Assembly: GCF_009731355.2 (NCBI RefSeq)
Contig: NZ_AP022810.1
Location: forward strand, 2,632,001-2,696,000
DNA: 64,000 nucleotides
Direction: 5' to 3'
Origin: Desulfuromonas sp. AOP6
Lineage (GTDB): Bacteria > Desulfobacterota > Desulfuromonadia > Desulfuromonadales > SZUA-540
Shown: positions 7,100-55,370 of the stretch, piece by piece
Layout: each line of letters opens with the position of its first letter
Position numbering within the stretch: position 1 is the first letter of the stretch
The notes under the pieces: generated by a model
Seen by the model: only the letters and a program-made list of their open reading frames with translations
What the model was told of the DNA's origin: nothing
Databases searched by the model: none
Program-made: the position numbers and the translations under genes

Positions 7100-9874
7100 T
7101 CAGCGACCGGCTATCACAGCGCGGCCCATGAATTCTTCATAAGGGATGGCCTTTTGCAGCAATAGCGCCAGGTCTTCTACCCGGCAGGGGCGGCAGAAGA
7201 AGTACCCCTGCATCTCCAGGCAGTCTCTGGTTTTCAAATAGTCGAGCTGAATCAGGGTTTCGACCCCCTCGGCGATGACCTTCAGGTCGAGACTGCGGGC
7301 CAGGGCCAGGATGGCTTCGACGATGGCCTTGTCGCTGCCATCCTCGGGGAGGCGGCGCACGAAGGATTGATCGATCTTCACCCGGTCGATGGGGAAATTT
7401 TTCAGATAGCTCAGGGACGAGTAACCGGTGCCGAAGTCGTCGATGGCCAGAGTGATACCGCGCACCTTCAAATCCGTGAGAGTCATGATGGTGCTTTCGA
7501 TGTTGTCCATCAGGTGACCTTCGGTCAACTCCAACTCCAGGCAGTCGGAGGGGAGTCCCGTTTCCGCCAGGACACGGTCGATCAGGTCGATGAATTTCGG
7601 CTGTTTGAACTGCATTCCCGAAATATTCACCGCCACCTTCACCTCGGGATTGCCGTTTTCTCGCCAGGTGCGGCACTGGCGGCAGGCGTTGTACAACACC
7701 CATTCGTCAATGGCCAGAATCAGCGCCGTCTCTTCGGCCAGGGGGATGAATTCCCCGGGGGAGACCAGGCCCTTCACCGGATCCTGCCAGCGCACCAGAG
7801 CCTCCAGACAGGTGATGCGCCCTGTCTCCAGGTTGATCTGGGGCTGAAAGCAGAGAAAGAATTCATCGTTGAGCAGGGCCCGGCGGATGCCGTTTTCCAG
7901 CTCAAGTCGCTTCAGGGCCAGACCGTTCATGGCCTCGGCGAAAAAGTGATAGCGATTACGTCCCAGGCGCTTGGCTTCGTACATGGCGATATCGGCGTTT
8001 TTCAGCAGGGTGTCGGCGTCCTCGGCGTCACGGGGGAAAAGGGCGATGCCGATACTGCAGGAGGTGTAAGTCTGATGTTCTCCCACCTGTAAAGGATCGG
8101 CAAAGATATCGAGAATTCGCTGGGCAAAAATCGCCGGGCTGTCGTCATGTTCGACGTCTTCGAGAATAATGGCGAATTCGTCGCCGGAGAGGCGCGCCAC
8201 GGTATCCATATTGCGGGTACACTCTTCCAATCGCCGCGCCACGCGGACTAATAGTTCGTCACCCACCTGATGACCAAGGGAATCGTTGATATTTTTGAAG
8301 CGGTCGAGATCGACGAAGAGCACCGCCAGTTTTTTCTCGCGGCGCTGGACCATTTTCATCGATTGCCACAAGCGGTCCATGAAGAGGCGGCGATTGGGCA
8401 GTCCGGTGAGGGCATCGAAATAAGCCAGTTCGCGGATGCGGCTTTCCGCCTCTTTGCGTTCCGTCACGTCGCGGGAAATGTGTATAATCTGGCGGATCTG
8501 ACCGTCGGCCGCCTTAATGGGGACAGCGACGACCTCCTTAAAGCGGGTTCCCGCAGGCGTCTGCTCCTCGCTCTCGACCACGACCTTCTCACCGGCGGCG
8601 GCACTGCGTACCAGGGAGCAGTCACGGCCGTCATTGAAACAGGGGGAGGAAAATCCGTGGATGACGCCATGGCAGGTGCGACCTAACACGTCCTGCTCAT
8701 GCTCAAAACCGGTCTCCTGCAAAAACACCTCATTGGCAGCCAGAATGCGGTAATCCTGGGCATCAATGACAATCAAAGCGTCATGCAGACTGTTGATGAT
8801 GCTGGCGTTGAATTCGCTCGATTCCCGCAGGGCATCTTCCACCGCCTGGCGCTCCTGAATATCTTCCTCCAGCAGGCGATTGGTTTGATTCAGTTCTTCA
8901 GTGCGCTGAGCCACCTGTGATTCCAGGGTATCCCGGCTGACCTTGAGGTTGGTGGACAGGCTGTTGAAAGCGGCGGCGACTTCATTGAGTTCGCGGGTAG
9001 CAAAGTCGCCGACCTGTTCCCCCAAACATGAATCTTCATGGGCAATCTGGACGACCTTGCTCCGAATGGTCTTCAGGGGGGTGATGAGCAGACGTCGGGA
9101 CAGGAACCACTGCAAAGAGAAAAGCACAACAAGGACGCCGCCGATAACCCCGTAGAGGGCACGGGAAAACCGGTCGGCGCCGGCATAGGCTTCTGCCAGG
9201 GGGATGCGAACGGACAGCGCCGAGACCAGCTGCCCTTCAAAGCGATCGAAGCTCCTCTCCGGCCCGTAGCGGGCCACGAGGTCGGCGGGGGCCATTTGGG
9301 GATCGAGGTGACAGCGTAGGCAGGGGGTTTCCATCGTCTCGCCACGCACCAGAACCTCGAAAAAAGGGTTACCGCCTATTTCCCGCACCCCCGACCACTC
9401 GTTGAGGCTCGGCTCCTGGCGCAGGGCCTCCAGAAACGCTTTCTCATGCTGATCCGCTTCATTGTGCGGACTGCGGGCATCGATTGCCGCCTCTTTGTAG
9501 TAGAGTCCGTCGTTATTTTCCACGTTGCCGTAAAATATCCGGTTGATTTCACGCACGGCATAGGTAGAAGACATCCAGGTCGGATCAAAATAGGCCGGGT
9601 CGACAGGACCGCTCTGTTCCAGTCTCTCAAAGAGTCGGGGCTTAAGCTTGCTGTTGAAGTACTGATGGACGGCCAGGTTGCGCTGCAGAATAACCTGGGC
9701 CCGATTCCGAGCCTCCTCGAGGGCATGGCTTCGCATGCCGTAATTGACAAAAGCCACCAGGGCCAGGCTCGCCAGAATAAACAGCGTCACGTTGACCAAA
9801 CCCAGCACATGGCTGATCCGTGGGGTTTTACGTCCCTGCGTCTGCTTCGGTGTTTGCTGATCCATCTGGGGCAT
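7100..9874 (-). CDS. Membrane c-di-GMP enzyme: heme-type sensor, HAMP, PAS, GGDEF, EAL
   Basis: The 924-residue protein has TM1 at about residues 25-45. A periplasmic DUF3365/Tll0287-like domain follows, with a c-type heme motif CLRCH at 185-189. Next come TM2 (about 220-240), HAMP and coiled coil, a PAS with Cys residues in CFNDGRDC, a GGDEF domain and an EAL domain. The cyclase loop reads SGDEF with an RNMD inhibitory site five residues before it. The EAL domain keeps EALVRW and DDFGTGYSSL. Both activities therefore look possible. It lies 50 bp after cheB in the same direction and is probably the last gene of the che operon, linking the pathway to second-messenger control. The ATG at 9874 follows AGGAAAAGAG. 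Confidence 0.9.
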   Translation of the reverse strand: MPQMDQQTPKQTQGRKTPRISHVLGLVNVTLFILASLALVAFVNYGMRSHALEEARNRAQVILQRNLAVHQYFNSKLKPRLFERLEQSGPVDPAYFDPTWMSSTYAVREINRIFYGNVENNDGLYYKEAAIDARSPHNEADQHEKAFLEALRQEPSLNEWSGVREIGGNPFFEVLVRGETMETPCLRCHLDPQMAPADLVARYGPERSFDRFEGQLVSALSVRIPLAEAYAGADRFSRALYGVIGGVLVVLFSLQWFLSRRLLITPLKTIRSKVVQIAHEDSCLGEQVGDFATRELNEVAAAFNSLSTNLKVSRDTLESQVAQRTEELNQTNRLLEEDIQERQAVEDALRESSEFNASIINSLHDALIVIDAQDYRILAANEVFLQETGFEHEQDVLGRTCHGVIHGFSSPCFNDGRDCSLVRSAAAGEKVVVESEEQTPAGTRFKEVVAVPIKAADGQIRQIIHISRDVTERKEAESRIRELAYFDALTGLPNRRLFMDRLWQSMKMVQRREKKLAVLFVDLDRFKNINDSLGHQVGDELLVRVARRLEECTRNMDTVARLSGDEFAIILEDVEHDDSPAIFAQRILDIFADPLQVGEHQTYTSCSIGIALFPRDAEDADTLLKNADIAMYEAKRLGRNRYHFFAEAMNGLALKRLELENGIRRALLNDEFFLCFQPQINLETGRITCLEALVRWQDPVKGLVSPGEFIPLAEETALILAIDEWVLYNACRQCRTWRENGNPEVKVAVNISGMQFKQPKFIDLIDRVLAETGLPSDCLELELTEGHLMDNIESTIMTLTDLKVRGITLAIDDFGTGYSSLSYLKNFPIDRVKIDQSFVRRLPEDGSDKAIVEAILALARSLDLKVIAEGVETLIQLDYLKTRDCLEMQGYFFCRPCRVEDLALLLQKAIPYEEFMGRAVIAGR

Positions 9875-9924: not shown

Positions 9925-10992
9925 TTACAGACAGACCCTCAACACCGCCGGGGCCAGCCCTTCGAGAGGCATCACCTTGTCCACCCCCCCCATTTTTATC
10001 GCCTCCTGCGGCATGCCGAAGACGACGCAGGTGGCCTGATCCTGGGCGAAGGTGACGGCGCCGGCCTCTTTGAGTTCGAGCATGCCGCGGGCGCCGTCGT
10101 CCCCCATACCGGTCATGATCACCCCGACGGCGTTTTTGCCGGCATAGCGCGCCGCCGAGCGGAAGAGCACATCGACGGAGGGACGGTGACGGCTGACCAG
10201 GGGACCATCCTTGATCTGTACATAGTAGCGGGCGCCGCTGCGCTTGAGCAGCATATGGTGGTTGCCGGGGGCGATGAGCACGTGGCCGCGCAGCACCGAA
10301 TCGCCATCTTTGGCTTCGGCGACGGAGACGGCGCAGAGGCTGTCGAGACGCTTGGCGAAGTTGGCCGTGAAATTCTCCGGCATGTGCTGTACCACGACCA
10401 CACCGGGGCTGTCCATGGGCAAAGCCTGCAGAAAGACCCGCAACGCCTCGGTGCCGCCCGTGGAGGCGCCGACGGCCACCACCTTTTCGGTCGTCTGCAG
10501 CATGGCGCCCGAGGCCGGCTTCTGCAGCACGGCGTCGGCGGTCAGCTTGGGAGCCGACTTGATGCTGCGCTCGCTGAGGCGGTGCAGCTGGGCCGAGGCG
10601 GCGGCCTTGACCGTATCGCAGATACGCAGGCGGGATTCTTCCAGAAACTGCCGCGTCCCCAGACGGGGCTTCTCGATGATCTCCACGGCGCCGTATTCCA
10701 GAGCCCTGAGGGCCGTCTCCGTCCCCTGGCCGGTGAGGCTGGAGCAGATGACCACCGGAATGGGGTGCTGGCTCATGATCTTCTGCAAAAAGGTGATGCC
10801 ATCCATGCGCGGCATCTCGACGTCAAGGGTGATAACGTCGGGGATCTCCTCCTTCAGGCGGTCGGAGGCGATAAAGGGGTCGGCCGCCGTGGCCATGACC
10901 TCGATCTGCGGATCGGAGGCGAGCAGATCGGACAGGGTCTGACGCACCAGGGCCGAGTCGTCGACGATGAGCACGCGGATTTTTTTCTTCAT
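9925..10992 (-). CDS. cheB: Chemotaxis protein-glutamate methylesterase CheB
   Basis: CheB removes methyl groups from chemoreceptors when phosphorylated by CheA. The 355-residue protein has an N-terminal receiver ([11 protein letters not shown], phospho-Asp in [12 protein letters not shown] near residue 57). The C-terminal esterase domain carries the catalytic triad in GASTGG (Ser), VVQHMP (His) and [11 protein letters not shown] (Asp). The linker is about 60 residues. Its ATG overlaps the cheD stop by 4 bp (ATGA), so the two are translationally coupled. The order cheR-cheD-cheB forms a complete adaptation module. Confidence 0.97.
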
Positions 10993-11474
10993 GACCGCCC
11001 TCCCTGCCCCAGGCGCTTAAGCCAGACTTCCCCGGTATGCGAATGAAATAGAATCTTGCGCCCCTGCTTTCCGCCCGTATCGGAGGAAGCGACACGCAGC
11101 CCCGCCCCCTTGATAAAGTCAAAAGCCGCCCGGATATTTTTGGTCCCCACGGTGCCGCCGGAAAAACCGCCGGAGGTTGCCAGCACATCGGCGCCACCGA
11201 AAACCTTGACCTCGATCTCACGGCGCAGAATCTTGCGACTTTCGAACTGGTCAAGCATGTGGGCCAGGGCGCAGTTGACAAACTTGAAGCAGTCCTCCGT
11301 CGTGCTGGATGGAAGCAGAGCATGACAAATAGCCGCCAGGCCTGTGCGTTTATGGAAGAACGTCACCGCCACGCACGATCCCAAAATGGTGGACACCAGG
11401 GCCGGTTCGCTGAGGATGAGCAGCTCGGCGGGCATCAGGAAGAACGCATTGGGCGGCGGGGCGAAGGTGGTCAT
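10989..11474 (-). CDS. cheD: Chemoreceptor glutamine deamidase CheD
   Basis: CheD deamidates receptor glutamines to create methylation sites, and in some species binds CheC. The 161-residue protein has the catalytic Cys in ILGSCVAV and the catalytic His in AAICHALLP, plus the [11 protein letters not shown] region of the family. It overlaps cheR and cheB by 4 bp each (ATGA junctions). No CheC is visible in the window. Confidence 0.93.
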
Positions 11475-12310
11475 CGCATAAACCTGTACACGGTGGGGGC
11501 GACCTGTTTCAAGGGCACGTTGTAGCCATGCAGCGATTCGGAGTGGCCGAGGAAAAGATAGCCGCCGGGGCGCAGATAACGGCAGAAACGGTTCATGAGC
11601 TGCTCCTGCGTCGGCTTGTCGAAGTAGATGATGACGTTGCGGCAGAAGATGATATCCATGGGCTCGGGCCAGCCGAAGTCGTCATCCATGAAATTCAAGC
11701 GACCGAAAGTCACCTGGGCCCGCAGCTTGGGAACGATGCGCACCAGGGGGCTGTCTGGGTCCTTGCTCTTGAGCAGGTACTTCTTGCGGAAAGCGGGACT
11801 GACCGGGGCGATCAGACGCTTTTCGTACACGGCCCGGCGCGCCTTTTCCAGCACACGGGTACTGATGTCCGTAGCGAAGATGTCAAAATTGAAACCCGGC
11901 ACCGCCTCGGCATAGTCACTCAGCACCATGGCCAGGGTATAGGGCTCCTCCCCGGTGGAACAGCCGGCGCTCCAGAGACGCAGCCGGCGGCGCATTCCGG
12001 CCCCATAGGTGCGAGCCAGTTCAGGCAAGGTAGTGGCGGTCAGGTAATCGAAATGGCTTGGCTCCCGAAAAAAGTCGGTCTTATTGGTGGTGACCGCATC
12101 AAGAAGATGGACCAGCTCTTCGCTCTGTCCCTCTTCGCTGAAGACATGGCGGCAGTAGTCGTCGTGGTTGTCCAGGCCCAGAGCGCGCATGCGCTTGGTC
12201 AGACGCCCCTCAAGCATGGTCTTCTTGCCCGGCGGCATCTTAATGCCCAGCTCATCGTAGATAAAATGGCTGAGCTCGTTGAAGGTTTTGGTGGAAAGGC
12301 CTGATTTCAC
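11471..12310 (-). CDS. cheR: Chemotaxis protein methyltransferase CheR
   Basis: CheR methylates chemoreceptor glutamates with S-adenosylmethionine. The 279-residue protein has the N-terminal helical CheR domain (LSHFIYDELGIKM, then TTNKTDFFREPSHF) and the SAM-binding domain (LWSAGCSTGEEPYTLAM, DIFATDIS, and FCRNVIIYFDK). There is no TPR extension. It follows the HBM receptor by 54 bp and overlaps cheD. Confidence 0.97.
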   Translation of the reverse strand: MKSGLSTKTFNELSHFIYDELGIKMPPGKKTMLEGRLTKRMRALGLDNHDDYCRHVFSEEGQSEELVHLLDAVTTNKTDFFREPSHFDYLTATTLPELARTYGAGMRRRLRLWSAGCSTGEEPYTLAMVLSDYAEAVPGFNFDIFATDISTRVLEKARRAVYEKRLIAPVSPAFRKKYLLKSKDPDSPLVRIVPKLRAQVTFGRLNFMDDDFGWPEPMDIIFCRNVIIYFDKPTQEQLMNRFCRYLRPGGYLFLGHSESLHGYNVPLKQVAPTVYRFMR

Positions 12311-12364
12311 CCGTATCTCCTATGGTCGCCCCCGGCGACGCTACGCCGGGGGCGACTCCTCAGG

Positions 12365-14320
12365 CTAGAAGCGCTCGAACTCGTCGTCCAGCTTGTCGCT
12401 GCCCGACCCCATGTCCAGCTGCAGACCCTTGCCGGCCGTTTTCGGCGCGGAAGCCTTGGCGGCCGGCTTGCCCATGGCCCCTTTGGTGGCAACAGGAGAA
12501 GGCAGAGCTCGGGTAGCAACGCGGGCACCATCACTGCTGTCAACCGTGAAAAACGAGATGGTATGCTGCAGCTGTTCGGCCTGGCTGTTGAGCTCTTCCG
12601 AGGTCGAGGCCATCTCTTCCGAGGCAGAAGAGTTTTGCTGAATGACCTGATCGAGCTGCTGGATGGCCTTGTTGACCTGCTCGGCACCGGCATCCTGCTC
12701 CTTGCTGGCAGCGGCAATCTCCTGCACCAGCTCGGCCGTACGCTGAATATCGGGCACCATGCGTTTCAGCATATCACCAGCTTTTTCCGCCACTTCAACG
12801 CTGCTGCTCGACAGGTCGCTGATCTCGGCGGCGGCATGCTGGCTGCGCTCGGCCAGTTTACGCACCTCGGCGGCGACCACGGCGAAACCCTTGCCATGTT
12901 CCCCGGCCCGGGCGGCCTCGATGGCGGCGTTCAGGGCCAGCAGGTTGGTCTGCCGGGCGATCTCTTCGATAATGCTGATTTTAGCGGCGATATCCTTCAT
13001 GGCCGATACGGTCTCGGCCACGGCCTTGCCGCCTTCCTGGGCGTCCTGGGCCGACTGGGTGGCGATCTTCTCCGTCTGCAGGGCGTTGTCGGCATTCTGC
13101 CGGATGTTGGCGGCCATCTGCTCCATGGAGCTGCTGGCCTCCTCGGCGGCGGCAGCCTGCTCGGTGGCCCCCTGACTCATTTCTTCGGACGAGGCAGAGA
13201 GCTCTTGGCTGCCGGACGCGACATTGTTGGAAGCAGATTTAACGTTCGCAACAACATCCTTAAGCTTGTCCACCATCGTGTTTAAAGCGGAAGCCAGATT
13301 ACCAATCTCATCGTTTTGAACGATATCCAGCCGCTGCGTCAAATCACCCTTGGCGATACTTTCGGCAAATTTAACACCTTTAAAAATTGGTTTAGTGATA
13401 GCTCGCGTTATCAGAAACGCAACAAAAATTGCCAGAACTAGAGCAGCCCCTCCTGACGTGAGGGCAAACATCGATTGTTTCGACAAATTTGAAGCCAGAA
13501 TTGACTGTTCGGTAGCCTTATTTTCGGTAATCTCCAACAGTATTTCATCAATCAGAGGCTCGATTTTGTGGACAGCTTCTCTCATCTGGTTTTCTAGGTC
13601 GGCCACTTCGGTTTTTTTGGCAACCAGGTTTTTAAAATCAGCATGATACTGCTGCAAGCCCGCCAACATAGATTTTTTCAGTTCTTCCCCAGCATTTGAG
13701 CCATTCAGCGCACTTGTTATAGTGCCTATAGTCTTTTCTACGCCTGTGATATATTTACCATCTCCCCTTAATAAATAGTCTTTTTCATCTTTGCGTAGAT
13801 CTAAATAGAGAATTTCTATTTCTGAATTTTTCAAATCCTCGATATACTTTTCAACGGTGTGAGCAGCCTTGCGAAAACCCCCCTGCAATCCCGAGTTTTC
13901 GTCCAGTCCCATGGTCACCCAGCCATCAACCAAGCTATTGAATCCATCTTGGTAGGTTAAGGCATATTGGGCAATATTGGCTGCTTTTTGGGCCAAAGCA
14001 TCATTGCCTAGTTTTTTTTGCATATCGTGCAATTTTGCACTGAGACCGGTGATCTCCTTGACCTTTTTTGTCACCGCCTCACGGTACTTGAGATCCTTGC
14101 GCAAAATAAAATCTTTTTCTGCGCGACGGGACTCCAACATTGAGTGACTGATTTGAATCGAAGCTATCTCTGACCCAATCACATATTCAAGGAGGCGATC
14201 ATTCTCCGTTTTGAACATAGTTAGGGTGGATTGGAAAATCCCCAGAGAAATGAGAAAAATCAGCACGACCGCAAGAAAGCCGCCGCCAATTTTGGTTCCA
14301 AGTTTCAGATTGTTAAACAT
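12365..14320 (-). CDS. Methyl-accepting chemotaxis protein with helical bimodular (HBM) sensor
   Basis: This 651-residue receptor lies inside the che operon between cheW and cheR. TM1 is at about residues 10-32. The long all-helical periplasmic region (about 35-280) has the repeated pattern seen in HBM domains, [13 protein letters not shown] and later [13 protein letters not shown], which in characterised members bind small organic acids. TM2 at about 285-307 is followed by HAMP and a signalling domain with [23 protein letters not shown]. The C-terminus is LDDEFERF. The sensor-coding part (about 13330-14320) is clearly AT-richer than the signalling part and its neighbours, suggesting a mosaic origin. 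Confidence 0.9.
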
Positions 14321-14376
14321 GTTTGACTCTCCTTTCTAAGAATCAAAAGTAGGTATTAGATATTGCGCCTTAAAAC

Positions 14377-14868
14377 CTATACTTGGTTTTCTGCTCCAAA
14401 AACGACCGACAGCTCGTCGTTGGAAAAGACCCGATCAATGTCAAGAATAATGATGAACTGTTCGTCACTCTTGCCCATCCCCTTGATGAACTCGGTACGC
14501 AGCCGCGTGCCGATGCGGGGGGGCGGCTCGATCTGATCGGGCTCCAGATCGAGCACTTCCTGTACCGAATCGGCCAGGGCGCCGATGACGGTGGTCTCCC
14601 CCTCCAGGTCGATCTCGGTGATGATGATGCAGGTGTTGACGGTCTTCTCCGTTCGGGCCATGCCGAACTTGAGGCGCATGTCCACCACTGGCACCACGTT
14701 ACCGCGCAGGTTGATGACCCCGCGCATGAACTCGGGCGTTTGCGGCACCTTGGTCATTTCGGTGAAGTCGAGCACCTCGCGCACCTTGTCGATACCCAGG
14801 GCAAAGACTTCGCCATCCAGCCTGAAGGTCAGGTACTGGTTGGTCTCCATGCCGTTTTCCACACTCAT
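14377..14868 (-). CDS. cheW: Chemotaxis coupling protein CheW (che operon)
   Basis: CheW links receptors to CheA. The 163-residue protein is a single CheW/SH3-like domain: YLTFRLDGEVFALGIDKVREVL, MRGVINLRGNVVPVVDMRLKFG and a C-terminal strand FIIILDIDRVF. It lies between cheA and the HBM receptor. A second cheW is at 49799-50311. The two differ clearly, so they may serve different receptor groups. Confidence 0.95.
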   Translation of the reverse strand: MSVENGMETNQYLTFRLDGEVFALGIDKVREVLDFTEMTKVPQTPEFMRGVINLRGNVVPVVDMRLKFGMARTEKTVNTCIIITEIDLEGETTVIGALADSVQEVLDLEPDQIEPPPRIGTRLRTEFIKGMGKSDEQFIIILDIDRVFSNDELSVVFGAENQV

Positions 14869-14904
14869 AGGTACTCCTTCCTGTTTCGATATATGGGACT
14901 CTGT

Positions 14905-17037
14905 CTATTTACGGTTTTCTAACTGTTTTTCCTGTTCCACCGCCTTGAGCAGAGAGGCGATATCGAGGATGAGAGCCACGGAGCCGTCGCCGAGGATGGT
15001 GGCGCCGGAAACACCCTCGATCCCGCGATAGAAACGCCCCAGGGACTTGATGACAGTCTGGTGCTCGCCGATGACGTGATCGACCACGAAGCCGATCTGC
15101 TGATGATTGACACGGGTGATGACAACCTGTTCGACAGTCGGCCTCTCCCCGTCCACGGCGAACTGCCGGCGCAGGTCAATGTAGGGGATGAGCTGGCCAC
15201 GGACGTTGACCAGGCTGCGGCCTTTGGCCTGGCCGCGCGTCTCGGCGGTCAGCTCGATGCACTCTTCGATGGCGTCGAGGGGCAGCACAAAATGGCTGTC
15301 GCCAAGGCGCACCAGCAGGCTCTCGATAATGGCCAGGGTCAGGGGGATCCGGATGCTGATCAGCGCCCCAACCCCCGGTTGACTGTCGATCTCGAGGCTG
15401 CCGCGCAGGGCTTCGATGGCCCGTTTGACCACATCCATGCCGACGCCACGGCCGGAGACGCTGGTCACCGAGGTGGCGGTAGAGAAACCGGCCGCGAAGA
15501 TAAGCTGATAGAGATCGTGATCGGCCAGCACCTCGCCCTCACTGATCAAGCCCCTTTCGACGGCCTTCTGCCGGATGGCTTCGCGGTTGAGGCCGCCGCC
15601 GTCGTCCTGAATGCGGATGATGACGCTGTCACCCGAATGCTCGGCGGAAAGATGGATGGTGCCCAGGCGAGGTTTGCCCGCCGCCTGCCGTTTTTCCGGC
15701 GACTCGATGCCGTGGTCGATGCTGTTGCGAATGAGGTGGACGAGGGGATCACCCAGTTTTTCGATGACAGTCTTGTCCAGTTCCGTATCGCCGCCGCTGG
15801 TCTGCAGGTCGATCTCCTTGCCCAGTTCGCGGGAGAGATCGCGCACCAGGCGCTTGAATTTGCTGAAGGTGGTGCCGATGGGGAGCATGCGGATATTCAG
15901 GGTATTGTCGCGTAGTTCGGCGGTGAGGCGCTCGACCTCTTCGGCGATGGCCAGCAGGTCAGAGTCGTTACGCTGCGCCGCCACCTGGCTCAGGCGCGAC
16001 TGCACGGTGACCAATTCGCCGACCAGGTCGACCATGGCATCGAGCTTCTCGGCCGGCACCCGCAGGCTGCTCTGGGCTTCTTCCTGCTTGCGCTTTTCCT
16101 GCAGCTGGCGCACCTGGTTCTGTTCGGCCAGCGCCGCTGTCACCTGGCCGGGTTCGACCAGGCGGGACGCAATGAGCTTTTCGCCGATCTTCTGCTGCTG
16201 GCCGAGAAGTTCCTGCAGCTGCGACTGGCTTATATCGCCCCGTTCGACCAGAATCTCACCCAGCCTTCTGGTTTGGCCTTCGGCCAGATCGAGCCCATCA
16301 TCGATGCGGTTAATGCGGATTTCAGCTTCATCCTCGACAAAAATAAAGACATCGCGAATGGCATCAAGCCCGGCTTCAGTCGTCAGCACCACGTCCCAGT
16401 GAACATGACACTCTTCCGGGTCGAGTTCATCGAGAAAAGGAATGTCACTCGGCTGCGCCACGATTTCACAGGGGCCGAGATCACGCAGTTCGTTAAGCAG
16501 GCAGACAGGGTTAGTGCCACCTCGCAACAATTGGGGGAAGGGCTTGAAGCGGATACGGTAAACGGCGGCTTCGGCATCCGCCTTTTTGTCCGCCGCTTTT
16601 TCTGCCCCCTTAGGGCTGCTGGCCGTCGCTTTCTGCCGCGGCTGCATGGCTCGAAAGGCCCCGATCAGCCTGGCTCCTTCCGGTGACTCATCCGCTGCGG
16701 CCGGATCAGCGGCATCCAGCAGCCGTTTGATCTGATCCCGGGCCGCCAGGGACAGATCCACCAGGTCGCGGGTAACGGGCAGTTGCCCGGTGCGCACCAG
16801 GTCAAAGACCGTTTCGACCTCGTGGGTAAAGGAGGCAATCGCCTCGAAGCCGAACATGGCCCCCGATCCTTTGATGGTGTGCATGGCCCGGAAGACCCGA
16901 CCAACCACGTCCATATCCTCGGGACGTTCTTCGAGTTCGAGGAGGGACTCTTCCAGCTCGGCCAGCAGTTCGCCGGCTTCCTCGCGAAAAGCCGCCCGCT
17001 GACTTTCCATCATGGCGCCGATATCGTTATTGGCCAT
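14905..17037 (-). CDS. cheA: Chemotaxis histidine kinase CheA
   Basis: CheA autophosphorylates in response to receptors and passes phosphate to CheY and CheB. The 710-residue protein has an Hpt domain with phospho-His53 in AMHTIKGSGA. An alpha/beta domain follows at about 150-260. A paired repeat at about 265-325 (LGEILVERGDISQSQLQELL, then GEKLIASRLVEPGQVTAAL) resembles MshEN-type segments. Then come the dimerisation helices, the ATPase (HLIRNSIDHGIE, QDDGGGL, SGRGVGMDVV) and a CheW-like C-terminus. The start at 17037 is chosen for its GGAGG six bases upstream; a start at 17073 would lie deeper in the preceding STAS gene, which it overlaps by 11 bp. Confidence 0.96.
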   Translation of the reverse strand: MANNDIGAMMESQRAAFREEAGELLAELEESLLELEERPEDMDVVGRVFRAMHTIKGSGAMFGFEAIASFTHEVETVFDLVRTGQLPVTRDLVDLSLAARDQIKRLLDAADPAAADESPEGARLIGAFRAMQPRQKATASSPKGAEKAADKKADAEAAVYRIRFKPFPQLLRGGTNPVCLLNELRDLGPCEIVAQPSDIPFLDELDPEECHVHWDVVLTTEAGLDAIRDVFIFVEDEAEIRINRIDDGLDLAEGQTRRLGEILVERGDISQSQLQELLGQQQKIGEKLIASRLVEPGQVTAALAEQNQVRQLQEKRKQEEAQSSLRVPAEKLDAMVDLVGELVTVQSRLSQVAAQRNDSDLLAIAEEVERLTAELRDNTLNIRMLPIGTTFSKFKRLVRDLSRELGKEIDLQTSGGDTELDKTVIEKLGDPLVHLIRNSIDHGIESPEKRQAAGKPRLGTIHLSAEHSGDSVIIRIQDDGGGLNREAIRQKAVERGLISEGEVLADHDLYQLIFAAGFSTATSVTSVSGRGVGMDVVKRAIEALRGSLEIDSQPGVGALISIRIPLTLAIIESLLVRLGDSHFVLPLDAIEECIELTAETRGQAKGRSLVNVRGQLIPYIDLRRQFAVDGERPTVEQVVITRVNHQQIGFVVDHVIGEHQTVIKSLGRFYRGIEGVSGATILGDGSVALILDIASLLKAVEQEKQLENRK

Positions 17038-17386
17038 GGTCGTCCTCCACCCAGAGACAGTTGGCTTCAGCATCGCTCAGGGGGCAGCTGCAGTGGCGGT
17101 TGAAGCCCGATTCGGCTTTAAGCGCCTGCATCACCTTGGGCAGGTTGGTCAGGACGAGGGATTTTCCAGCCCGCACTGCAGTGCGGTGAGCGGAGCAGAG
17201 GAGCTGCAGCCAGGGAAAGTCCATCTTTTGCGCCTGCGAGCAGTCGACCACCACCCGGTCGTTTTGCCCCAACGCCTGCTGCAGCACCAATTTCAGTTCG
17301 GTGATTTCCTGAATGGTCAGCGCGCCGCCAAGATGCACGACACTGGCGCCACCTTCTTCGATAATCCGGTATGTCTGTTGTTCCAT
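17027..17386 (-). CDS. STAS-domain protein of the che operon
   Basis: The 119-residue protein has an anti-sigma-factor-antagonist-like STAS fold: VVHLGGALTIQEITELKLVL, then DRVVVDCSQAQKMDFPWLQLL. At the usual phosphosite the sequence is CSQAQKMDFPW, with Asp-Phe in place of the normal Ser/Thr, so phosphorylation there is doubtful. The C-terminal 25 residues are Cys-containing (HCSCPLSDAEANC). It sits between cheY and cheA and overlaps cheA by 11 bp. Single STAS proteins occur in che operons of many Deltaproteobacteria, with an unclear role. Confidence 0.8.
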   Translation of the reverse strand: MEQQTYRIIEEGGASVVHLGGALTIQEITELKLVLQQALGQNDRVVVDCSQAQKMDFPWLQLLCSAHRTAVRAGKSLVLTNLPKVMQALKAESGFNRHCSCPLSDAEANCLWVEDDHGQ

Positions 17387-17415
17387 GGTTTCCCCTTGTC
17401 GGGCCAGCAGCTGAA

Positions 17416-17778
17416 TTATCCGATAAGCTTCTTGACCACCCCGAGCAGCTTGGCCGGGTCGAAGGGCTTGACGAGCCAGCCCGTAGCACCGGCGGCCTTG
17501 CCCTTGGCCTTGAAGTCGTCGCCGGCTTCGGTGGTGAGCATGAGCATGGGGGTGAAGCGGTAGGCCGGCAGTCCCCGCAGATTCTGAATGAGGGTAATAC
17601 CGTCCATGTGGGGCATGTTCAAATCGGTGATGACCAGATCGAAGCTCTGCCCCTGGGCCTGGGTCAAGGCGGCCTGCCCGTCGGCGGCTTCCACCACCTC
17701 GTAACCGGCCCCTTTCAGGGTGAAGCTGACCATTTGCAGAATGGAACGGGAATCGTCTGCTGCCAGAATTTTTTTCAT
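17416..17778 (-). CDS. cheY: Chemotaxis response regulator CheY
   Basis: This is a single-domain receiver of 120 residues: acidic pair in AADDSRS, phospho-Asp52 in LVITDLNMPHMDG, switch Thr in MLTTEAG, and Lys in LVKPFDP. There is no output domain. It lies between the soluble receptor-like gene and the STAS gene, so CheA is the likely phosphodonor and the flagellar motor or a signal sink the target. Confidence 0.93.
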   Translation of the reverse strand: MKKILAADDSRSILQMVSFTLKGAGYEVVEAADGQAALTQAQGQSFDLVITDLNMPHMDGITLIQNLRGLPAYRFTPMLMLTTEAGDDFKAKGKAAGATGWLVKPFDPAKLLGVVKKLIG

Positions 17779-17826
17779 GTGTCCTCCGTATGTTCTAAGT
17801 TTGCAAGCCGCGCCAGGGCGGCATCA

Positions 17827-19020
17827 TTAAAAGAGTTCGATGGAGCCTTCATCCAGGGTCTTCTGCGACACGGGGTTGTGCTGGGCTTGCTCCACCAGGA
17901 TGGCGGCCTGTCCGAGCACATCTCTGAGGGCTCGCAGACGGGCACAGCCGTCGGCCGCGCCCTCCTCTTCCCCATCCTCCGAAACTTTCCCCAAAGGCAG
18001 GGAGGCGAGGTCGTTCAGAACAGCTTCCAGCACCCCCATGCGACCGTTGACATGGCCGAGCACCTGATGGGCCATGTCCTGAAACTGCAGGGAGGTCACC
18101 AGGGAGCGCACCTCCAGGCCGACGCTCTCGGCGATGGCGGAAATCTGGGCGGCGGACTGTTCCACCTGGCTGTCGAATTCGCGACTCTTCTGCAAAAGAC
18201 CGGAGACGCGGCCGCGGGCATCAGCCACCATATGGGCATCCTGGGCGGCCATCTGCTCCATGGCGGCGCCGACAGCGCCCAGCCCGTCGGAAATACCGCT
18301 GACCGCGTCGCCAATCTGGTCGCTGAAGCGGTTGGAGCGAGCCGACAGATTGCGCACCTCTTCGGCGACGACGGCAAAACCCTTCCCCGCCTCGCCGGCT
18401 CGCGCCGCCTCAATAGCAGCGTTCAGCGCCAGCATGTTGGTCTGCCGGGCGATGGTGCGGATTTCCCCCAACTGGCTGAGAACCGAGGAAAAGCGGGTAT
18501 TGGTCTGCTGCATCTCGCGGATGAGCCGCTCGGCCACCTGCCCGTTTTTTTCGGCCGCCTCGACGAAACCGAGGAGCACCGTCTCGATCTCGGAAAGAAA
18601 GGAGGCCAAGGTCTGCTTCCCCCCCTGGGAATCACCGTTGTTCTCCGCCTTGCCGGTCAGCTGCAGCGACAGGTTCTGCTGCTGGCGGGTCTGCTGTTCA
18701 AGACCGGTAAATCCCTGCACCAGTCGGTTGATGGCGTCGTCGAGAATGCCCTGCACCTGCGTATTTTCCGAACGCATGCTGGCGAACTGGCCGTTGAACT
18801 TTTCCTGCAGGTCGGCCATAAGAGTCTGGGTCACCTGCTCCAGCTCAATCACGCCTTCGGTGACGGCCAGGTTACCGGCCGGATCTTCCCCGCCCTGATC
18901 CTGCTTCCTGGAACGCAGCCGACAGGCAATCGCCTCGGCCGCTTTTTGGGTTCCGCTCTGCAGCGGCGGCATGACCCGGCTGAAAACCTTCTGACTGAAT
19001 CGGGACATCTGTGACAGCAT
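17827..19020 (-). CDS. Soluble methyl-accepting-type chemotaxis protein
   Basis: The 397-residue protein has no transmembrane segment. Its centre carries a receptor-type signalling tip ([29 protein letters not shown], interrupted here as three motifs [17 protein letters not shown] and GKGFAVV). The C-terminal part has [14 protein letters not shown], a motif common in cytoplasmic receptor-like proteins that lack a sensor domain. It probably joins cytoplasmic CheA-CheW arrays or interferes with them. The start at 19020 is chosen because AAGGAAA precedes it; an upstream in-frame ATG at 19047 lacks a good ribosome site. It lies 47 bp before cheY. Confidence 0.82.
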
Positions 19021-19052
19021 GAGATTTCCTTTTTTTGATGATTCCAATGGGC

Positions 19053-19442
19053 TTATTCCTTTGAAGAGACTTTATGCCCCAGGATCGAGGCGACCAGGCT
19101 CTGCGCAGGGGCCAGGGGGAGTTCCTTTTCCGCCAGTGATTCCCCCTGGAAGAACAGCTGTCGCGCCAGGCCGCCCTGCACATCGAGCAAGAGCAGAGGT
19201 CTCTCCCCTTCCTGGCGGCACAGTCCTTCAAGAAAATTCGATTTGCGCACCTCGCTCCAGCGGCCCGTCACCAGAACCATAGCCGGTTGCGGCTGCTGAT
19301 CCCCATAGAGCGAAAGCCAATTGATGGCCTCCTCCAAACCCTTGACGTAGACCACCTGATAGCCGGCCAGCTCCAGAAGAAACCCGGTGGATGTGGACGG
19401 TGTGTAATTCTGTTCGCAATACAAAATCATCTGACGGTTCAT
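19053..19442 (-). CDS. Degenerate receiver-like protein, first gene of the che operon
   Basis: I do not recognise a named family. The 129-residue product has the strand-helix rhythm of a receiver domain ([45 protein letters not shown]), but the acidic pocket and phospho-Asp are missing. It is therefore best called a pseudo-receiver. The ATG at 19442 follows AGAGGAG, which is rather close. It is the first gene after the sigma-54 promoter at 19483-19498 and ends 32 bp before the next gene, so it is probably co-expressed with the che operon. Confidence 0.55.
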
Positions 19443-19482: not shown

Positions 19483-19498
19483 AGCAAGGGCAATGCCA
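19483..19498 (-). promoter_or_regulatory. Sigma-54 promoter of the che operon
   Basis: Read leftwards the site is TGGCAT-TGCCC-TTGCT, with the invariant GG and GC dinucleotides at -24 and -12 and one mismatch to TGGCAC-N5-TTGCW. The predicted start is near 19472, about 30 bp before the first gene. Three palindromic elements lie 75-164 bp upstream. Confidence 0.78.
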
Positions 19499-19555
19499 AA
19501 CCGTATACGCTTTATAAGTTATTGGTTTTAAATAGGTTTAGCTCTTTTATAAAAA

Positions 19556-19587
19556 CAAAAAGGCTGCAACCAGGGTTGCAGCCTTTT
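19556..19587. terminator. Bidirectional hairpin containing a GCAACC-N2-GGTTGC palindrome
   Basis: AAAAAGGCTGCAACC-AG-GGTTGCAGCCTTTTT is a near-perfect hairpin with A/T tracts on both sides. It can terminate leftward transcription from the kinase/regulator pair. Its core, GCAACC-AG-GGTTGC (19566-19579), is the same palindrome as the enhancer-like sites at 19655-19668 and 55222-55235. It is centred 74.5 bp upstream of the -24 element. Confidence 0.8.
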
Positions 19588-19636
19588 TAAAATAAAATCA
19601 ATGTTTTGTAATGTTTTTGGTGTGTTAGACGATATT

Positions 19637-19670
19637 TCCACCAAAGTTGACAGTGCAACCCTGGTTGCAC
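19637..19670. promoter_or_regulatory. Paired enhancer-like palindromes upstream of the che promoter
   Basis: The perfect 18-bp palindrome GTGCAACCCTGGTTGCAC (19653-19670) is centred 163.5 bp from the -24 T. A degenerate copy, TCCACCAAAGTTGA (19637-19650), is centred exactly 18 bp closer to the promoter. The same pair with the same 18-bp offset occurs at 55204-55235. Distance and symmetry fit upstream activating sites for a sigma-54 activator. The binding protein is inferred, not shown. Confidence 0.7.
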
Positions 19671-19677: not shown

Positions 19678-21099
19678 TCAGGAAGCGGTGGGGTTTTTCT
19701 TCAGCCTTTTACTCAAAGCCTGCCGGGATATACCCAGCATGCCCGCGGCGATGCCCTGATTCCCGTTGGCCCGGCGCATGGCTTCGACCACCAGTTGGGA
19801 CGCGGCTTCTTCGATGGTGGGCAACCTTACGGGAAATGAGCAGGTGGCAGCGGCCGCCGTCGTCTCGCCCGAGCCGGATATCTCCGCCCTGCCGTAAGAT
19901 TCCCCCATGGCCTTTTTGAAGGCCGCCATGGAAAGTTTACCCGATTCGTGCAGACTCACAGCGTCGTAGACCATGGCGCGGAGCTCACGGACATTGCCGG
20001 GAAAATGATAGCTGCCGAGCAGCGCCAGGAGTTCAGGGGGTGGCGTAGGGCGTTTTTTGCCCAACTCTTCGGCGGCCTCCGTCAGAAAGCATTCGAGCAG
20101 TAGGACCAGGTCGTCACGGCGCTGGCGCAGCGGCGGCACCTGGGCGTGGTGCCCGCGCAGCCGGTAGTACAGGTCCTTGCGAAAACGCCCCTGCTGCTGC
20201 AGCAGCTCCAGGTCCTGATTGGTGGCCACCACGATACGGGCCCGGCAGCGCTTGAGCTTGTCGCTGCCCAGGGGGAGGTACTCACCCTCCTGCAGCAGAC
20301 GCAGGAGCTTGACTTGCGACAGGGGGCTGAGATCCCCGATCTCGTCGAGGAAGAGTGTGCCGGCTGCGGCCTGCTCAATCATGCCAGGGCGCTGCTGATC
20401 GGCGCCGGTGAAGGCGCCGCGCACATGACCGAAAAGGGTATCGGAGAAAACATTGTCATCGAGCCCTGCTACATTGACGGCGACCCAGGGTTCCTCTTTG
20501 CGGCTGAGCAGATGAACGGCTTTGGCCAGCAGTTCCTTGCCGACGCCGCTCTCGCCCGTAATGAGAACCGGCTGCCCGCTCGGCGCCACCGCTTCAAGGT
20601 AGCGGAACAGGGCCAGCATGCGTGGGTTTTGGGTATGTATGCGACTGAACGCTTCAGGGGTGCGCAGCTCTTCGTTGAGAACCTGCTGCTGAAGGGCGCG
20701 ATTTTCGCCCTGCAGTTCGAGAAAGCGCAGGGCGCGATGGATTCCGGCCAGGAGCGGACCTTCTTCCGATGTTTTCACCAGAAAATCGAAGGCGCCGAGC
20801 TGCATGCATTGCACCGCCGTTTCGACCTGATTGAGGGCCGTATTGACGATAACGGGGATCTCGGGATACTGCTCGACAAGCAGGGGCAGCAGTTCATCGC
20901 CCGGCAGATGGGGCATGGTCAGATCGAGCAGGATCAGACTCACCGGACGCTCGGCCAGAATCCCCAGCACCCGGCGGCTGTCCTGACATTCGATGATGTC
21001 GGTGAACCCCCCGCTGCGCTGCAGGGTGCGGCTCAGTGCCCGCAGCCATAGGGGTTCATCATCGACCAGCAGCAGGGACTTGTTGTGGCATATGGGCAT
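19678..21099 (-). CDS. Sigma-54-dependent response regulator (REC-AAA+-Fis), candidate activator of the che operon
   Basis: This is a 473-residue NtrC-family activator. The receiver has acidic residues in LLVDDEP and phospho-Asp59 in LILLDLTMPHL. The AAA+ domain has Walker A GESGVGKE, the sigma-54-contacting loop GAFTGA (in RGAFTGADQQ), Walker B TLFLDEIGDL and an R-finger region. The Fis-type helix-turn-helix is at the end (NQGIAAGMLGISRQALSKRL). Its ATG is six bases after the kinase stop, with AGAGGAG inside the kinase gene. It ends 7 bp before the enhancer-like palindrome, directly upstream of the che operon, which makes it the leading candidate regulator of that operon. Confidence 0.93.
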   Translation of the reverse strand: MPICHNKSLLLVDDEPLWLRALSRTLQRSGGFTDIIECQDSRRVLGILAERPVSLILLDLTMPHLPGDELLPLLVEQYPEIPVIVNTALNQVETAVQCMQLGAFDFLVKTSEEGPLLAGIHRALRFLELQGENRALQQQVLNEELRTPEAFSRIHTQNPRMLALFRYLEAVAPSGQPVLITGESGVGKELLAKAVHLLSRKEEPWVAVNVAGLDDNVFSDTLFGHVRGAFTGADQQRPGMIEQAAAGTLFLDEIGDLSPLSQVKLLRLLQEGEYLPLGSDKLKRCRARIVVATNQDLELLQQQGRFRKDLYYRLRGHHAQVPPLRQRRDDLVLLLECFLTEAAEELGKKRPTPPPELLALLGSYHFPGNVRELRAMVYDAVSLHESGKLSMAAFKKAMGESYGRAEISGSGETTAAAATCSFPVRLPTIEEAASQLVVEAMRRANGNQGIAAGMLGISRQALSKRLKKNPTAS

Positions 21100-21104: not shown

Positions 21105-23102
21105 CTACTCCTCTGGCGCGACGGGCAGGCGCAGAATCGCCCGCGTCCCCACCCCCGGTGTCGACTCGAAAGACAGGGTGCCGCCGTGTTCCCGCACGAT
21201 GCGTGACGACACGGACAGGCCCAGTCCCGTGCCCCCCTCTTCGCGCCGCGTGGTAAAGAACGATTCGGTGAGGCGGGGCAGATTCTCGGGGGCGATGCCC
21301 ACCCCCTGATCACTGACTTCAAAAACCACTTCTGCCGCCGCGGCGTCGAAGGAGGTGCGTATGCTGATGGCGCGGTTGCGGTCCGGCAGGGCCTGACAGG
21401 CGTTGACCACCAGGTTGATGATGACCTGCTCGATGCGCTGCATGTTGCCATGCAGGGGTGGCAGGTCCGTCGCATAGTGCGTGGAAAAATGGTCGGTGGC
21501 CTTATGGATGGGGTTGGCGACCAGGCGCAGAGCGGCCTGCACCGCCTCATGGAGGAAAAAGTTCTCGTGGCGGTCTGAGTGTTCACGCCGCACGAACTCC
21601 TTCAGATCCTCGACGATGCGCTTGATGCGGCGGGCGCCGCCCTGAACCTCGTCCAGCACAAGAGGGATTTCCTCGCGCATGCGTCTGTAGGGAAAGCCGG
21701 CGAACTCACCATCCGGCGCGTCGCGGAAATGAGCATCGAGAATGGGCAGGGATTCGCTGAAGACGTCCTGCAGCAGGGGAAGGTTGAGCAGGATGAGAGC
21801 GTTGGGGTTATTGATCTCATGGGCCACCCCTGCCGTCAGTTCCCCCAGGGCCGCCAGACGGCTTGATTGGTTGGCCTCTTCGCGCAGCTTGAGCTTTTCG
21901 GTAATATCGCTGGCCAGCTCGATGACCTGGCGCACGGTTCCATTCTCATCCTTCAGGGGAAAAGTCTTAACTCCCCAGATGCGGCCATCGGGAGTGGAGA
22001 TGACCTCCTCCGCCGCTTCGCCCGTGGCGAAGGTAATTCGAGCCGGGCAGTTAAGGCAAGGATTATCGGTCATGTAATGGCAGATCTTCCCGACCATCTC
22101 CTCTGGGGAGACATCTATATAAGCGGCCGAACTCTTGTTAGCCCAGACAATCTTGAAATTACGGTCCAGCAAATGAAGAACATCAGGAATGCCGTCGAGC
22201 AGAGTTTTCAACTGGTCAGAGAGTTCGCGTTTCTGCTGTTCGCTTTCACGCAAAGCCTTTTCGCGCTCTTCAATCGTCGTGGCCATGGCCTTGAATGCCG
22301 TCGAAACTTCGCCGATTTCATCCTCAGGTCCTTCAGGCACGGCAATCCGGTAGTCGCCAGCCGCCACGGCCAGGGCAGCCTGGCGCAGCGGCCGTAAACG
22401 GTTCAGAATGAAGACACTGAGCAGGGTGATAAGAGCGAGGAAAAGAATCAGGTAGCCGATCAGATGATCGACAAAATTCATCCAGAACAGACGGTTGGTC
22501 ATGGTTTTAACTGAAGTTCCCGGCATTTTGATGCTGAAAATACCGACAAGTTGCCCTACCCCGTAGTCATAGCCCGCATCATAGCGGGCCCGTATGCTGG
22601 CGGGAGCGGTAGCATTCTGACCGTGGCAGGTGAGGCAGTAGGTCTCTGTCCGGATGGGGGTGGCGTAATGGTAGATCGTTTGGTCTGATTCTGCCCGATA
22701 GACGTGCAGACGCTCCGTTTCGGCGGGCTTTTCGCGAAAATAGGCGATGGCCTGGCGCTCCATATCGTCCGCCAGGTTATCCGCATTGCGGGGATTTTCC
22801 GAGACGTTATTGAAGCTGATACCGCTTGGATTGCGGGTAGAGAAATCCTTGGAGATGCGCAGCAGGGCGTGGGCCGGGAGAAAACCAAGGGTCTCGTCGG
22901 TAAGAGGGAGGCCGCTGTCGATAAACTGGTGGTGATAGACCTGGCGGGTGGCCATGACCATGCTGTGCAGGGCCCGGGCTTCATTCAATTTGACTTCACG
23001 CACCTCCCAATCCACCCCATGGTAGCGCAGAACTTCTACCAGAAGCAGGGAAACGGCGAAGATGACAAGCATGGCCCAGGTCAGACGGGTACGCAGTCGC
23101 AT
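21105..23102 (-). CDS. Sensor histidine kinase with periplasmic c-type heme domain and PAS
   Basis: The 665-residue kinase has TM1 (about 8-26). A periplasmic DUF3365-like domain follows, with a heme motif CLTCH at 156-160. Next are TM2 (about 200-225), HAMP, a PAS whose C-terminal part carries CLNCP, HisKA with phospho-His in AHEINNP, and HATPase (NLVVNACQAL, DQGVGI, GGTGLGL). It should phosphorylate the regulator encoded immediately downstream. Heme could let it read redox state or a gas, by analogy with this domain family. The start at 23102 has GGAG five bases upstream and is preferred to 23120. Confidence 0.92.
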   Translation of the reverse strand: MRLRTRLTWAMLVIFAVSLLLVEVLRYHGVDWEVREVKLNEARALHSMVMATRQVYHHQFIDSGLPLTDETLGFLPAHALLRISKDFSTRNPSGISFNNVSENPRNADNLADDMERQAIAYFREKPAETERLHVYRAESDQTIYHYATPIRTETYCLTCHGQNATAPASIRARYDAGYDYGVGQLVGIFSIKMPGTSVKTMTNRLFWMNFVDHLIGYLILFLALITLLSVFILNRLRPLRQAALAVAAGDYRIAVPEGPEDEIGEVSTAFKAMATTIEEREKALRESEQQKRELSDQLKTLLDGIPDVLHLLDRNFKIVWANKSSAAYIDVSPEEMVGKICHYMTDNPCLNCPARITFATGEAAEEVISTPDGRIWGVKTFPLKDENGTVRQVIELASDITEKLKLREEANQSSRLAALGELTAGVAHEINNPNALILLNLPLLQDVFSESLPILDAHFRDAPDGEFAGFPYRRMREEIPLVLDEVQGGARRIKRIVEDLKEFVRREHSDRHENFFLHEAVQAALRLVANPIHKATDHFSTHYATDLPPLHGNMQRIEQVIINLVVNACQALPDRNRAISIRTSFDAAAAEVVFEVSDQGVGIAPENLPRLTESFFTTRREEGGTGLGLSVSSRIVREHGGTLSFESTPGVGTRAILRLPVAPEE

Positions 23103-23179
23103 GGGGTCTCCGGGTGTCAATAAATTGGCAAGCTGGTGGTCCGGAGGAGATCAATGCAAACGGCATGCCGCCGGCTGGT

Positions 23180-49640: not shown

Positions 49641-49798
49641 TGCAGCGATACCTCATGGTTAAGGTTCAACAACCGCCCCCACATCAAAAGCCTGTCAAAA
49701 ACCTGTCTGGGCCTGTCCCGGGGGCAGGGTGCGCACGCCCAGGGTTCTCAACGGCATAATCATCCGTGATCCGCGTCGGCTTCCGGTCGTGAAGTCTT

Positions 49799-50311
49799 TT
49801 AGGCCTGACTGACGGTATCGAGCTGCTCGAGCTCGTCCTCGTACAGCAGACGGCTGACATCGAGCAAAATTTTGACTTCTTCGCCCACCTTGCCCATGCC
49901 CTGGATGTAGCGGTTCTTGCCCCTGTTGCTACTGGGGGCGGGTTCGATCTGTTCGGCCGGAATTTCCAGAACCTCGCTGACCTCGTCGACCACCAGGCCA
50001 ACGCTCTTGCCGTCAAGATTGACCACGATGATGCAGGTTCGCTCATCGTAAGGACGGCTGGGCAGGTTGAAACGCAGGCGCACATCCATAACCGGAATGA
50101 CTTTGCCCCGCAGATTGATGACACCACGGATAAAGTCGGGCATATCGGGGACGTCGGTGATCTTCTGGATACCGATGATCTCCGTCACGTGCCGGATTTC
50201 AATGCCATAACCGACCTCAGCCAGTTGAAAAGTCAAAAACTTGCCTTTGAGGGTATCTTCATTGTCAGCCAGATGATCCGCTATATCCCACTGCGATACA
50301 GAACTTGCCAT
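49799..50311 (-). CDS. cheW: Chemotaxis coupling protein CheW (receptor block)
   Basis: The 170-residue protein is a single CheW domain with a short N-terminal extension: FLTFQLAEVGYGIEIRHVTEII, FIRGVINLRGKVIPVMDVRLRFN and VKILLDVSRLL. The ATG follows AAGGAG. It lies between two receptor genes, away from cheA, and probably couples those receptors to the CheA encoded at 14.9-17.0 kb, or to another kinase outside the window. Confidence 0.94.
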   Translation of the reverse strand: MASSVSQWDIADHLADNEDTLKGKFLTFQLAEVGYGIEIRHVTEIIGIQKITDVPDMPDFIRGVINLRGKVIPVMDVRLRFNLPSRPYDERTCIIVVNLDGKSVGLVVDEVSEVLEIPAEQIEPAPSSNRGKNRYIQGMGKVGEEVKILLDVSRLLYEDELEQLDTVSQA

Positions 50312-50407
50312 GATTCGCTCCTTAGTCGGGCTAAAGTGATGGGCCGGCAGCCCAAGCTACCGGCCATTTAATGCAAAAACTATGTCAAAAAGTTTCAAGA
50401 ATAAGAT

Positions 50408-52597: not shown

Positions 52598-52726
52598 GGA
52601 ACCTCCTGCTTGAATACGGTTAAAAACTGTTCCGCTCCAACTTTTTTTGCTGATTATGGCGGGGCTGGCCGGGACATGTCTCAGAATCGTGCCATCATCC
52701 CTGTGTCTGCCACCCAGCTTTCCGCC

Positions 52727-55050: not shown

Positions 55051-55066
55051 AGCAATAGGAGTGCCA
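55051..55066 (-). promoter_or_regulatory. Sigma-54 promoter of the receptor block
   Basis: Read leftwards the site is TGGCAC-TCCTA-TTGCT, a perfect match to TGGCAC-N5-TTGCW. The predicted start near 55040 leaves a leader of about 70 bases before the GTG at 54967. It probably drives the two Cache receptors, cheW and the DcrH-like receptor. Confidence 0.87.
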
Positions 55067-55363: not shown

Positions 55364-55370
55364 TCAGGTT

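Follow-up and report, generated by a model that had tools for sequence, protein, structure and literature searches.

A candidate sigma-54 activator with three-site enhancers at two chemotaxis loci of Desulfuromonas sp. AOP6, and a possible two-residue code for its sites

The window, i.e., the whole stretch of 64,000 nucleotides analysed from Desulfuromonas sp. AOP6, contains a che operon and a separate block of chemotaxis receptor genes, each preceded by a sigma-54 promoter with repeated dyads upstream. The features of the che locus are listed below, with the distances of sites given from their centres to the T of the -24 element.

9925-19047, minus strand: body of the che operon (MCP, CheY-like receiver at 17416-17778, small ORF, CheA, CheW, MCP, CheR, CheD, and CheB, according to Pfam)
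19053-19442, minus strand: first gene of the che operon, a small protein with a length of about 129 aa, its start being placed at the ATG behind GAGGAG
19483-19498, minus strand: che operon sigma-54 promoter, with the -24/-12 element TGGCATTGCCCTTGCT
19515-19527, minus strand: IHF-like site AACCAATAACTTA, differing from WATCARNNNNTTR by one mismatch, 23 bp
19556-19589, minus strand: intrinsic-terminator-like hairpin of 15 pairs behind the activator gene, its stem including site A, followed by TTTTTATAAA
19562-19583, no strand: proximal site A, with the core GCAACCAGGGTTGC at 19566-19579, 74.5 bp
19637-19650, no strand: distal site B, TCCACCAAAGTTGA, weak, 145.5 bp
19655-19668, no strand: distal site C, GCAACCCTGGTTGC, 163.5 bp and 18.0 bp from B
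19678-21099, minus strand: NtrC-type response regulator, the proposed activator (Pfam PF00072, PF00158, and PF02954)
21105-23120, minus strand: sensor histidine kinase, its partner (Tll0287-like domain, CXXCH motif, HAMP, and PAS, according to Pfam)

Upstream of the promoter, sites A, B, and C are all found in the interval up to where the regulator gene ends. The regulator has the composition of an NtrC-type protein: a receiver domain, a sigma-54 AAA+ domain with the GAFTGA motif, and a Fis-type helix-turn-helix with the sequence SRQALSKRL. Of 99 NCBIfam families, the best-scoring 25 were compared with their equivalog cut-offs, and it stayed below each of these (AtoC, 312.3 versus 714; NtrC, 300.7 versus 558.6). 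The rpoN gene was found in the genome at G000:C1:1447047-1448456 (TIGR02395, 469.8 bits versus a cut-off of 277.35), and a search for IHF subunits gave a best himA-type match of 110.8 bits, with the cut-off at 120.25. A paralogous module is located at G000:C1:2762295-2763922 (locus L047) and comprises a regulator with an SQPAL helix and two sites of the AT type, centred at 173.5 bp and 86.5 bp. The paralogous regulator itself (G000:C1:2762522-2763922) is 58% identical to the proposed activator and has its own promoter, with another small gene and then an MCP gene behind it.

The Tll0287-like sensor domain is shared by the kinase and by the GGDEF-EAL protein (7100-9874) behind the che operon, and the CXXCH motif in the kinase copy suggests a haem-based signal. 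No Pfam or NCBIfam match was obtained for the small protein encoded at 19053-19442. Its relatives of about 130-150 aa also head other che clusters with the scaffold described below (L050, about 7595-8053; L257, 2229-2624; L047, 9803-10252); the copy in the congener G002 gave a sub-threshold FleQ match (E 0.08), ranked behind an unrelated one. Judged by eye, and as a guess, this protein could be a degenerate receiver domain.

The receptor sites are situated 35.6 kb from the che sites, with the following features.

47463-54967, minus strand: receptor block (MCP, MCP, CheW, and MCP-haemerythrin, according to Pfam)
55051-55066, minus strand: -24/-12 element of the sigma-54 promoter of the receptor block, TGGCACTCCTATTGCT
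55136-55149, no strand: proximal site A', TCAACCAAAGTTGA, 76.5 bp
55204-55217, no strand: distal site B', ATAACCCAAGTTAT, 144.5 bp
55222-55235, no strand: distal site C', GCAACCCAGGTTGC, 162.5 bp and 18.0 bp from B'

The first receptor gene probably starts at GTG 54967, behind AAAAAAAGGAG. The last receptor (47463-49640) combines an MCP signalling domain with a haemerythrin domain and has a CXXCH motif in its N-terminal part. Just upstream of the receptor enhancers, at 55325-55365, there is a long inverted repeat, GCGCAACGGGCAGG ... CCTGCCCGTTGCGC, which is probably the terminator of the MCP gene 55371-57569; a similar inverted repeat occurs upstream of the receptor enhancers in the congener G001.

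An earlier note on this DNA had placed the che promoter at 19498-19483, and the minus-strand sequence TGGCATTGCCCTTGCT, with its TGGCAY-N5-TTGC element, bore this out. All six site-to-promoter distances given there, three at each promoter, proved exact, as did the outer pair at 18.0 bp centre to centre at both. Three palindrome copies are indeed present at the che promoter, but the middle one, site B, is weak, having a TCCACC half. Sites A' and B' also depart from the consensus, and C' is a perfect GC-type site. At both loci the repeated dyads fall within about 70-200 bp upstream of the promoter.

The perfect palindrome GCAACC-N2-GGTTGC occurs three times in the genome of 3,269,909 bases, in every case at the che or receptor promoter. 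Exact TGGCAY-N5-TTGC matches number 26 in the genome, and only the che and receptor promoters are accompanied, within 250 bp, by a GC-type site having one mismatch or none. Looser versions of the palindrome are common. Those with at most three mismatches were not enriched within the window (35 versus 40.2 expected), nor were those with at most one mismatch genome-wide (9 places versus 14 for the reversed control pattern). As to random occurrence, which the earlier note had named as a possible refutation, the perfect matches are confined to the two promoters and the loose ones are frequent. Six one-mismatch GC-type places (145531, 145669, 148569, 856095, 1562159, and 1636369) were considered as further regulon members and rejected: all lie inside ORFs of at least 196 aa, and no exact sigma-54 match lies nearby. 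Four of these ORFs were scanned and encode NADH dehydrogenase subunits at three places and cytochrome b at one. A third promoter-like element at 7008-6993, ahead of the MCP gene 4688-6916, had no site above the scan threshold in its upstream 5 kb. The ranking of sites by a matrix trained on the six sites was circular and was left aside. The case for the reality of the sites is made by the perfect matches, by position, and by conservation; the weaker sites and the spacings are real as well.

Related genomes were another check named in that note, and the che layout was found in two congeners (G001 and G002) and the receptor layout in one (G001). The activator of G001 is 93% identical, and its che distal pair B and C is preserved letter for letter within an alignment of 88% identity. 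The che promoter of G001 reads TGGCATTGCCTTTGCT, site A is changed internally with the dyad kept (GCAACCGAAGTTGC), and the IHF-like site is a perfect match at the same place. The receptor promoter of G001 (TGGCATTCCTGTTGCT) has sites at 162.5, 144.5, and 74.5 bp, of which A' and C' are conserved and the counterpart of B' is ATAACCAGAGTTAT; the ORFs of the receptor block follow one another as in the window and are similar in size. At the che promoter of G002, which reads CGGCAT, the three sites are centred at 153.5, 135.5, and 66.5 bp, each 8-10 bp closer than in the window, and are followed by a similar small gene, an MCP gene, and a receiver protein gene. The G002 regulator gene is a broken-off end reading GISRQALSKRL. 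An IHF-like site at 23-25 bp was absent from the G002 che promoter and from the receptor promoters of the window genome and G001, and a search with the strict pattern gave no receptor promoter in the G002 assembly, which is 78% complete.

The comparison was extended to loci downstream of related regulator genes. The first set comprised 86 loci, of which 84 were usable (L101 and L103 were dropped), representing 76 non-redundant regions. The second set was drawn from among the matches listed and comprised 120 loci (20 and 100, two of these being on the first-set list), with three of the listed places, in G063, G049, and G126, set aside; it gave 109 non-redundant regions, 83 with a promoter. A pair of AACC-N2-GGTT-like dyads 18 bp apart was found in 14 of the 76 first-set regions, including the window's own region and that of G001, versus a mean of 0.02 and a maximum of 1 in 100 shuffles of that set. 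The second set had this pair in 14 of 109 regions by plain count, the next commonest spacing being 19 bp (three regions). In the 57 first-set regions with a promoter, dyad positions counted from the -24 T had maxima at 80-89, 150-159, and 170-179 bp; the second set showed these maxima again, the family dyads clustering near 85, 153, and 171 bp.

Among the 16 loci with three sites, the proximal site was 68-71 bp from the pair in 15. Proximal sites, sought at 65-100 bp, were centred at 70.5-74.5 bp in 7 of 46 loci, at 83.5-90.5 bp in 38, and at 95.5 bp in one, two groups separated as helical phasing would give; the window promoters are in or beside the first of these groups and are tighter than the family by roughly one turn of the helix. 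An IHF-like site (at most one mismatch to the consensus WATCARNNNNTTR (PMC7962754), same strand) was centred 23-25 bp from the -24 T at 29 of 54 loci with sites and at 25 of 84 without. Counted anywhere in the 70 bp scanned, such matches were present at 34 of the 54 loci, versus a mean of 7.9 and a maximum of 15 in 200 shuffles. In the second set, 26 of the 109 regions had no promoter match and 49 had a promoter with no site in the position windows, so that 75 regions yielded no scorable site and the layout is far from universal under the search used. Exact AACC-N2-GGTT pairs with variable gaps occurred at 23 places in 21 of 136 genomes (4 for the control pattern), of which only six were spaced by 18 bp and three by 19 bp. 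Pairs spaced by 19 bp and flanked by TC/GA were noticed at G048:C46:57596-57624 (L106), G089:C1:637281-637309 (L114), and G021:C1:1529814-1529842 (L123), and perhaps form another specificity class. The idea that the arrangement is particular to the two promoters of the window did not survive this comparison, since the layout is common to part of the regulator family. What appears to be new here, as far as sequences can tell, is a conserved scaffold together with a putative two-residue code linking the regulators to their sites.

The putative code relates the first two residues of the recognition helix to the outer bases of a site: GC for RQ, AT for QP, and GT or GC for RP. The helix SRQALSKRL of the proposed activator belongs to the class paired with GCAACC sites in the family. 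In the first set, 22 of the 84 loci, near-duplicates included, were labelled by hand from the site letters before the helices were printed: all 8 GCAACC loci had a helix beginning with [ST]-R-Q, and all 14 ATAACC loci had S-Q-P. The RP and PQ/QQ predictions were derived later from six weak loci, and the QP, RQ, RP, and PQ predictions were fixed before the new loci were fetched. Of the 34 new scorable loci, 27 had the predicted letters as the most frequent ones, and in 5 more these letters shared first place (L168, L176, L185, L223, and L230). With ties included, agreement was 19/20 for QP, 6/6 for RQ, 6/6 for RP, and 1/2 for PQ, the misses being L139 (PQ helix, TC letters) and L247 (QP helix, GA/GT letters). 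With ties treated alike, permuting the labels 20,000 times gave a mean of 14.0 and a maximum of 23, versus the 32 of 34 seen. By half-sites over both sets, QP went with AT in 109 of 118, RQ with GC in 45 of 50, and RP with GT in 14 and GC in 7 of 24; the RP class is thus mixed, and the PQ/QQ class, consisting of two loci, has no established code.

The classes also differ in the genes downstream. Regulators with QP precede transporters at 58 loci and chemotaxis genes at 9, and those with RQ or RP precede chemotaxis genes at 24 and the transporters sought at none (Fisher p 6e-15, a value that ignores relatedness). The test set aside genes left without assignment (18 QP, 27 RQ, and 12 RP) and loci with only a small ORF (1, 1, and 4, respectively), and matches to CheY only were excluded from the chemotaxis count. 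Because the transporter queries were taken from QP loci, the lack of transporters behind RQ and RP regulators is biased, and the contrast is a tendency only.

Shared descent alone could produce the agreement between helices and sites, without residues 459-460 reading the outer bases. A tree built without the DNA-binding end required at least 8 helix changes and at least 10 site changes, of which one independent pair fell on well-supported branches, so that descent has to be reckoned with; moreover, the second base is predicted equally well by Q460 and by Q137, a residue of the linker (0.889 for both). For the outer base, however, R459 is clearly the best predictor among 458 alignment columns (0.944, the next being 0.852). 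It aligns, by a weak match (best E 0.018), with Arg85 of Fis, a residue in contact with the conserved G at +/-7 (PMC4784862), and the number of helix changes in the best tree also speaks against descent as the sole cause, which we regard as quite improbable. A different objection concerns site A, whose arms extend 10 bp on each side of a 2-bp centre. It forms the core of AAAAAGGCTGCAACC..GGTTGCAGCCTTTTT, behind which, read along the activator transcript, comes GTTTTTA, and it bears the two sequence marks of an intrinsic terminator, a strong G+C-rich hairpin and then a U-tract (-22.4 kcal/mol, z -5.0). In G001 the loop is changed to cUUCGg and the stem is kept (-22.8, z -4.5). The palindrome 19562-19583 might accordingly be a transcription terminator and nothing else, its likeness to the other sites being coincidental. 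Against this, the 14-bp core of site A is identical to site C, where a T-run is absent; no such hairpin is present at the receptor site of matching distance; the G001 stem still contains AACC-N2-RGTT; and no long hairpin is present at 40 of the 46 family loci with a proximal site. A terminator role alone is hence very unlikely. The proximal sites with 12-15-bp arms, 6 of 46, each stand ahead of che-class genes in about four lineages, and no arms above 10 bp were found among 104 distal dyads; a clear T-tract at the proximal site was seen only in the window, in G001, and at L037.

Another enhancer-binding protein, for example the paralogue at G000:C1:2762522-2763922, might instead control the receptor promoter alone or jointly with the 19678-21099 protein. 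Counting that protein itself, the genome holds 17 matches to it with E values no higher than 1e-60, and site B' reads ATAACC-CA-AGTTAT, with the letters paired with the SQPAL helix of the paralogue, and is kept in G001; an input from a second regulator is therefore possible. On the other hand, C' is a perfect site of the GC type, the receptor geometry equals that of the che promoter, and the paralogue already has its own promoter with AT-type sites, all of which make control by another protein unlikely. The reading preferred for both loci is that of one shared activator, as the earlier note had proposed, which the type of the sites, their geometry, their conservation in congeners, and the class of the helix support at the level of sequence. 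The 19678-21099 protein is the likely activator of the che and receptor promoters.

Under this shared-activator reading, the kinase 21105-23120, with haem sensing upstream of its signal, would phosphorylate the 19678-21099 response regulator. The phosphorylated regulator would bind the three dyads as dimers, cooperatively at the 18-bp pair and also at the site 68-71 bp nearer to the promoter. An AAA+ ring would then assemble on the dyads, and looping of the intervening DNA would bring it onto RNA polymerase with sigma-54, helped at the che promoter by a bend at the IHF-like site 23 bp from -24. The hairpin at site A probably ends the activator transcript, so that che transcription would depend on the sigma-54 promoter. 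The same protein would act from the matching sites 35.6 kb away, and its presence at both promoters would unite the core che operon and the block of three receptors plus CheW into one regulon. This mechanism as a whole, with three regulator-bound dyads, looping, and a common che and receptor regulon, is considered highly probable.

A broader reading for part of the sigma-54 activator family is favoured with moderate confidence. It supposes a two-residue code in which the first residue sets the outer base (R for G or Q for A) and the second the next (Q for C or P for T). Through these residues, paralogues would have moved between transporter and chemotaxis control, keeping their enhancers apart in one cell, and the scaffold (the 18-bp pair, the third site 68-71 bp nearer, and the IHF-like bend at 23-25 bp) would have been retained. 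In some chemotaxis loci, the nearest enhancer would also have become a terminator.

Several known systems can be compared. The three NorR enhancer sites upstream of norVW are reported to be essential and to act as the scaffold on which higher oligomers assemble (PMC2941729, which cites Tucker et al. 2010), and the che and receptor promoters likewise have three upstream sites. NorR differs in having a GAF sensor domain where the 19678-21099 protein has a receiver domain; no Pfam match to GAF was obtained for the latter at E 0.001. The sequence and spacing of the NorR sites presumably differ as well from those described here. In its working, the che and receptor layout would resemble a three-enhancer promoter of the NorR type without being of that type. 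Fis offers a likeness in that the first residue of its recognition helix, Arg85, reads G at +/-7 in the position aligned with Arg459, but its contacts are mainly with the backbone, on a core of 15 bp that is A/T-rich in the middle (PMC4784862), unlike the 14-bp AACC-N2-GGTT dyads with variable outer bases. In Geobacter, sigma-54 promoter elements have been predicted ahead of che clusters, but no activator or activator sites are named in the relevant passages, and the words "enhancer" and "NtrC" are absent from the main text (Tran et al. 2008, PMC2577667). For the sigma-54 regulome of Desulfovibrio vulgaris (Kazakov et al. 2015, PMC4641369), activator sites were reconstructed by comparison, with activator genes often adjoining their promoters, but chemotaxis is given there among the promoter functions with no activator site found; motif figures apart, neither TAACC nor CAACC appears as a string in the main text. 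No earlier account of this activator or of the code was found among the literature matches listed, which came mostly from outside subscription journals.

Sigma-54 control of che genes had thus been predicted already in Geobacter, with no activator or site named for chemotaxis promoters in the relevant passages of these two studies (PMC2577667, PMC4641369). A candidate activator, its sites, and their geometry can now be assigned to two chemotaxis operons. Site A suggests that one DNA element may serve both as enhancer and as terminator. The helix rule might allow the sites of related regulators to be read from protein sequence, and the insulation between paralogous two-component regulators would become testable through two residues.
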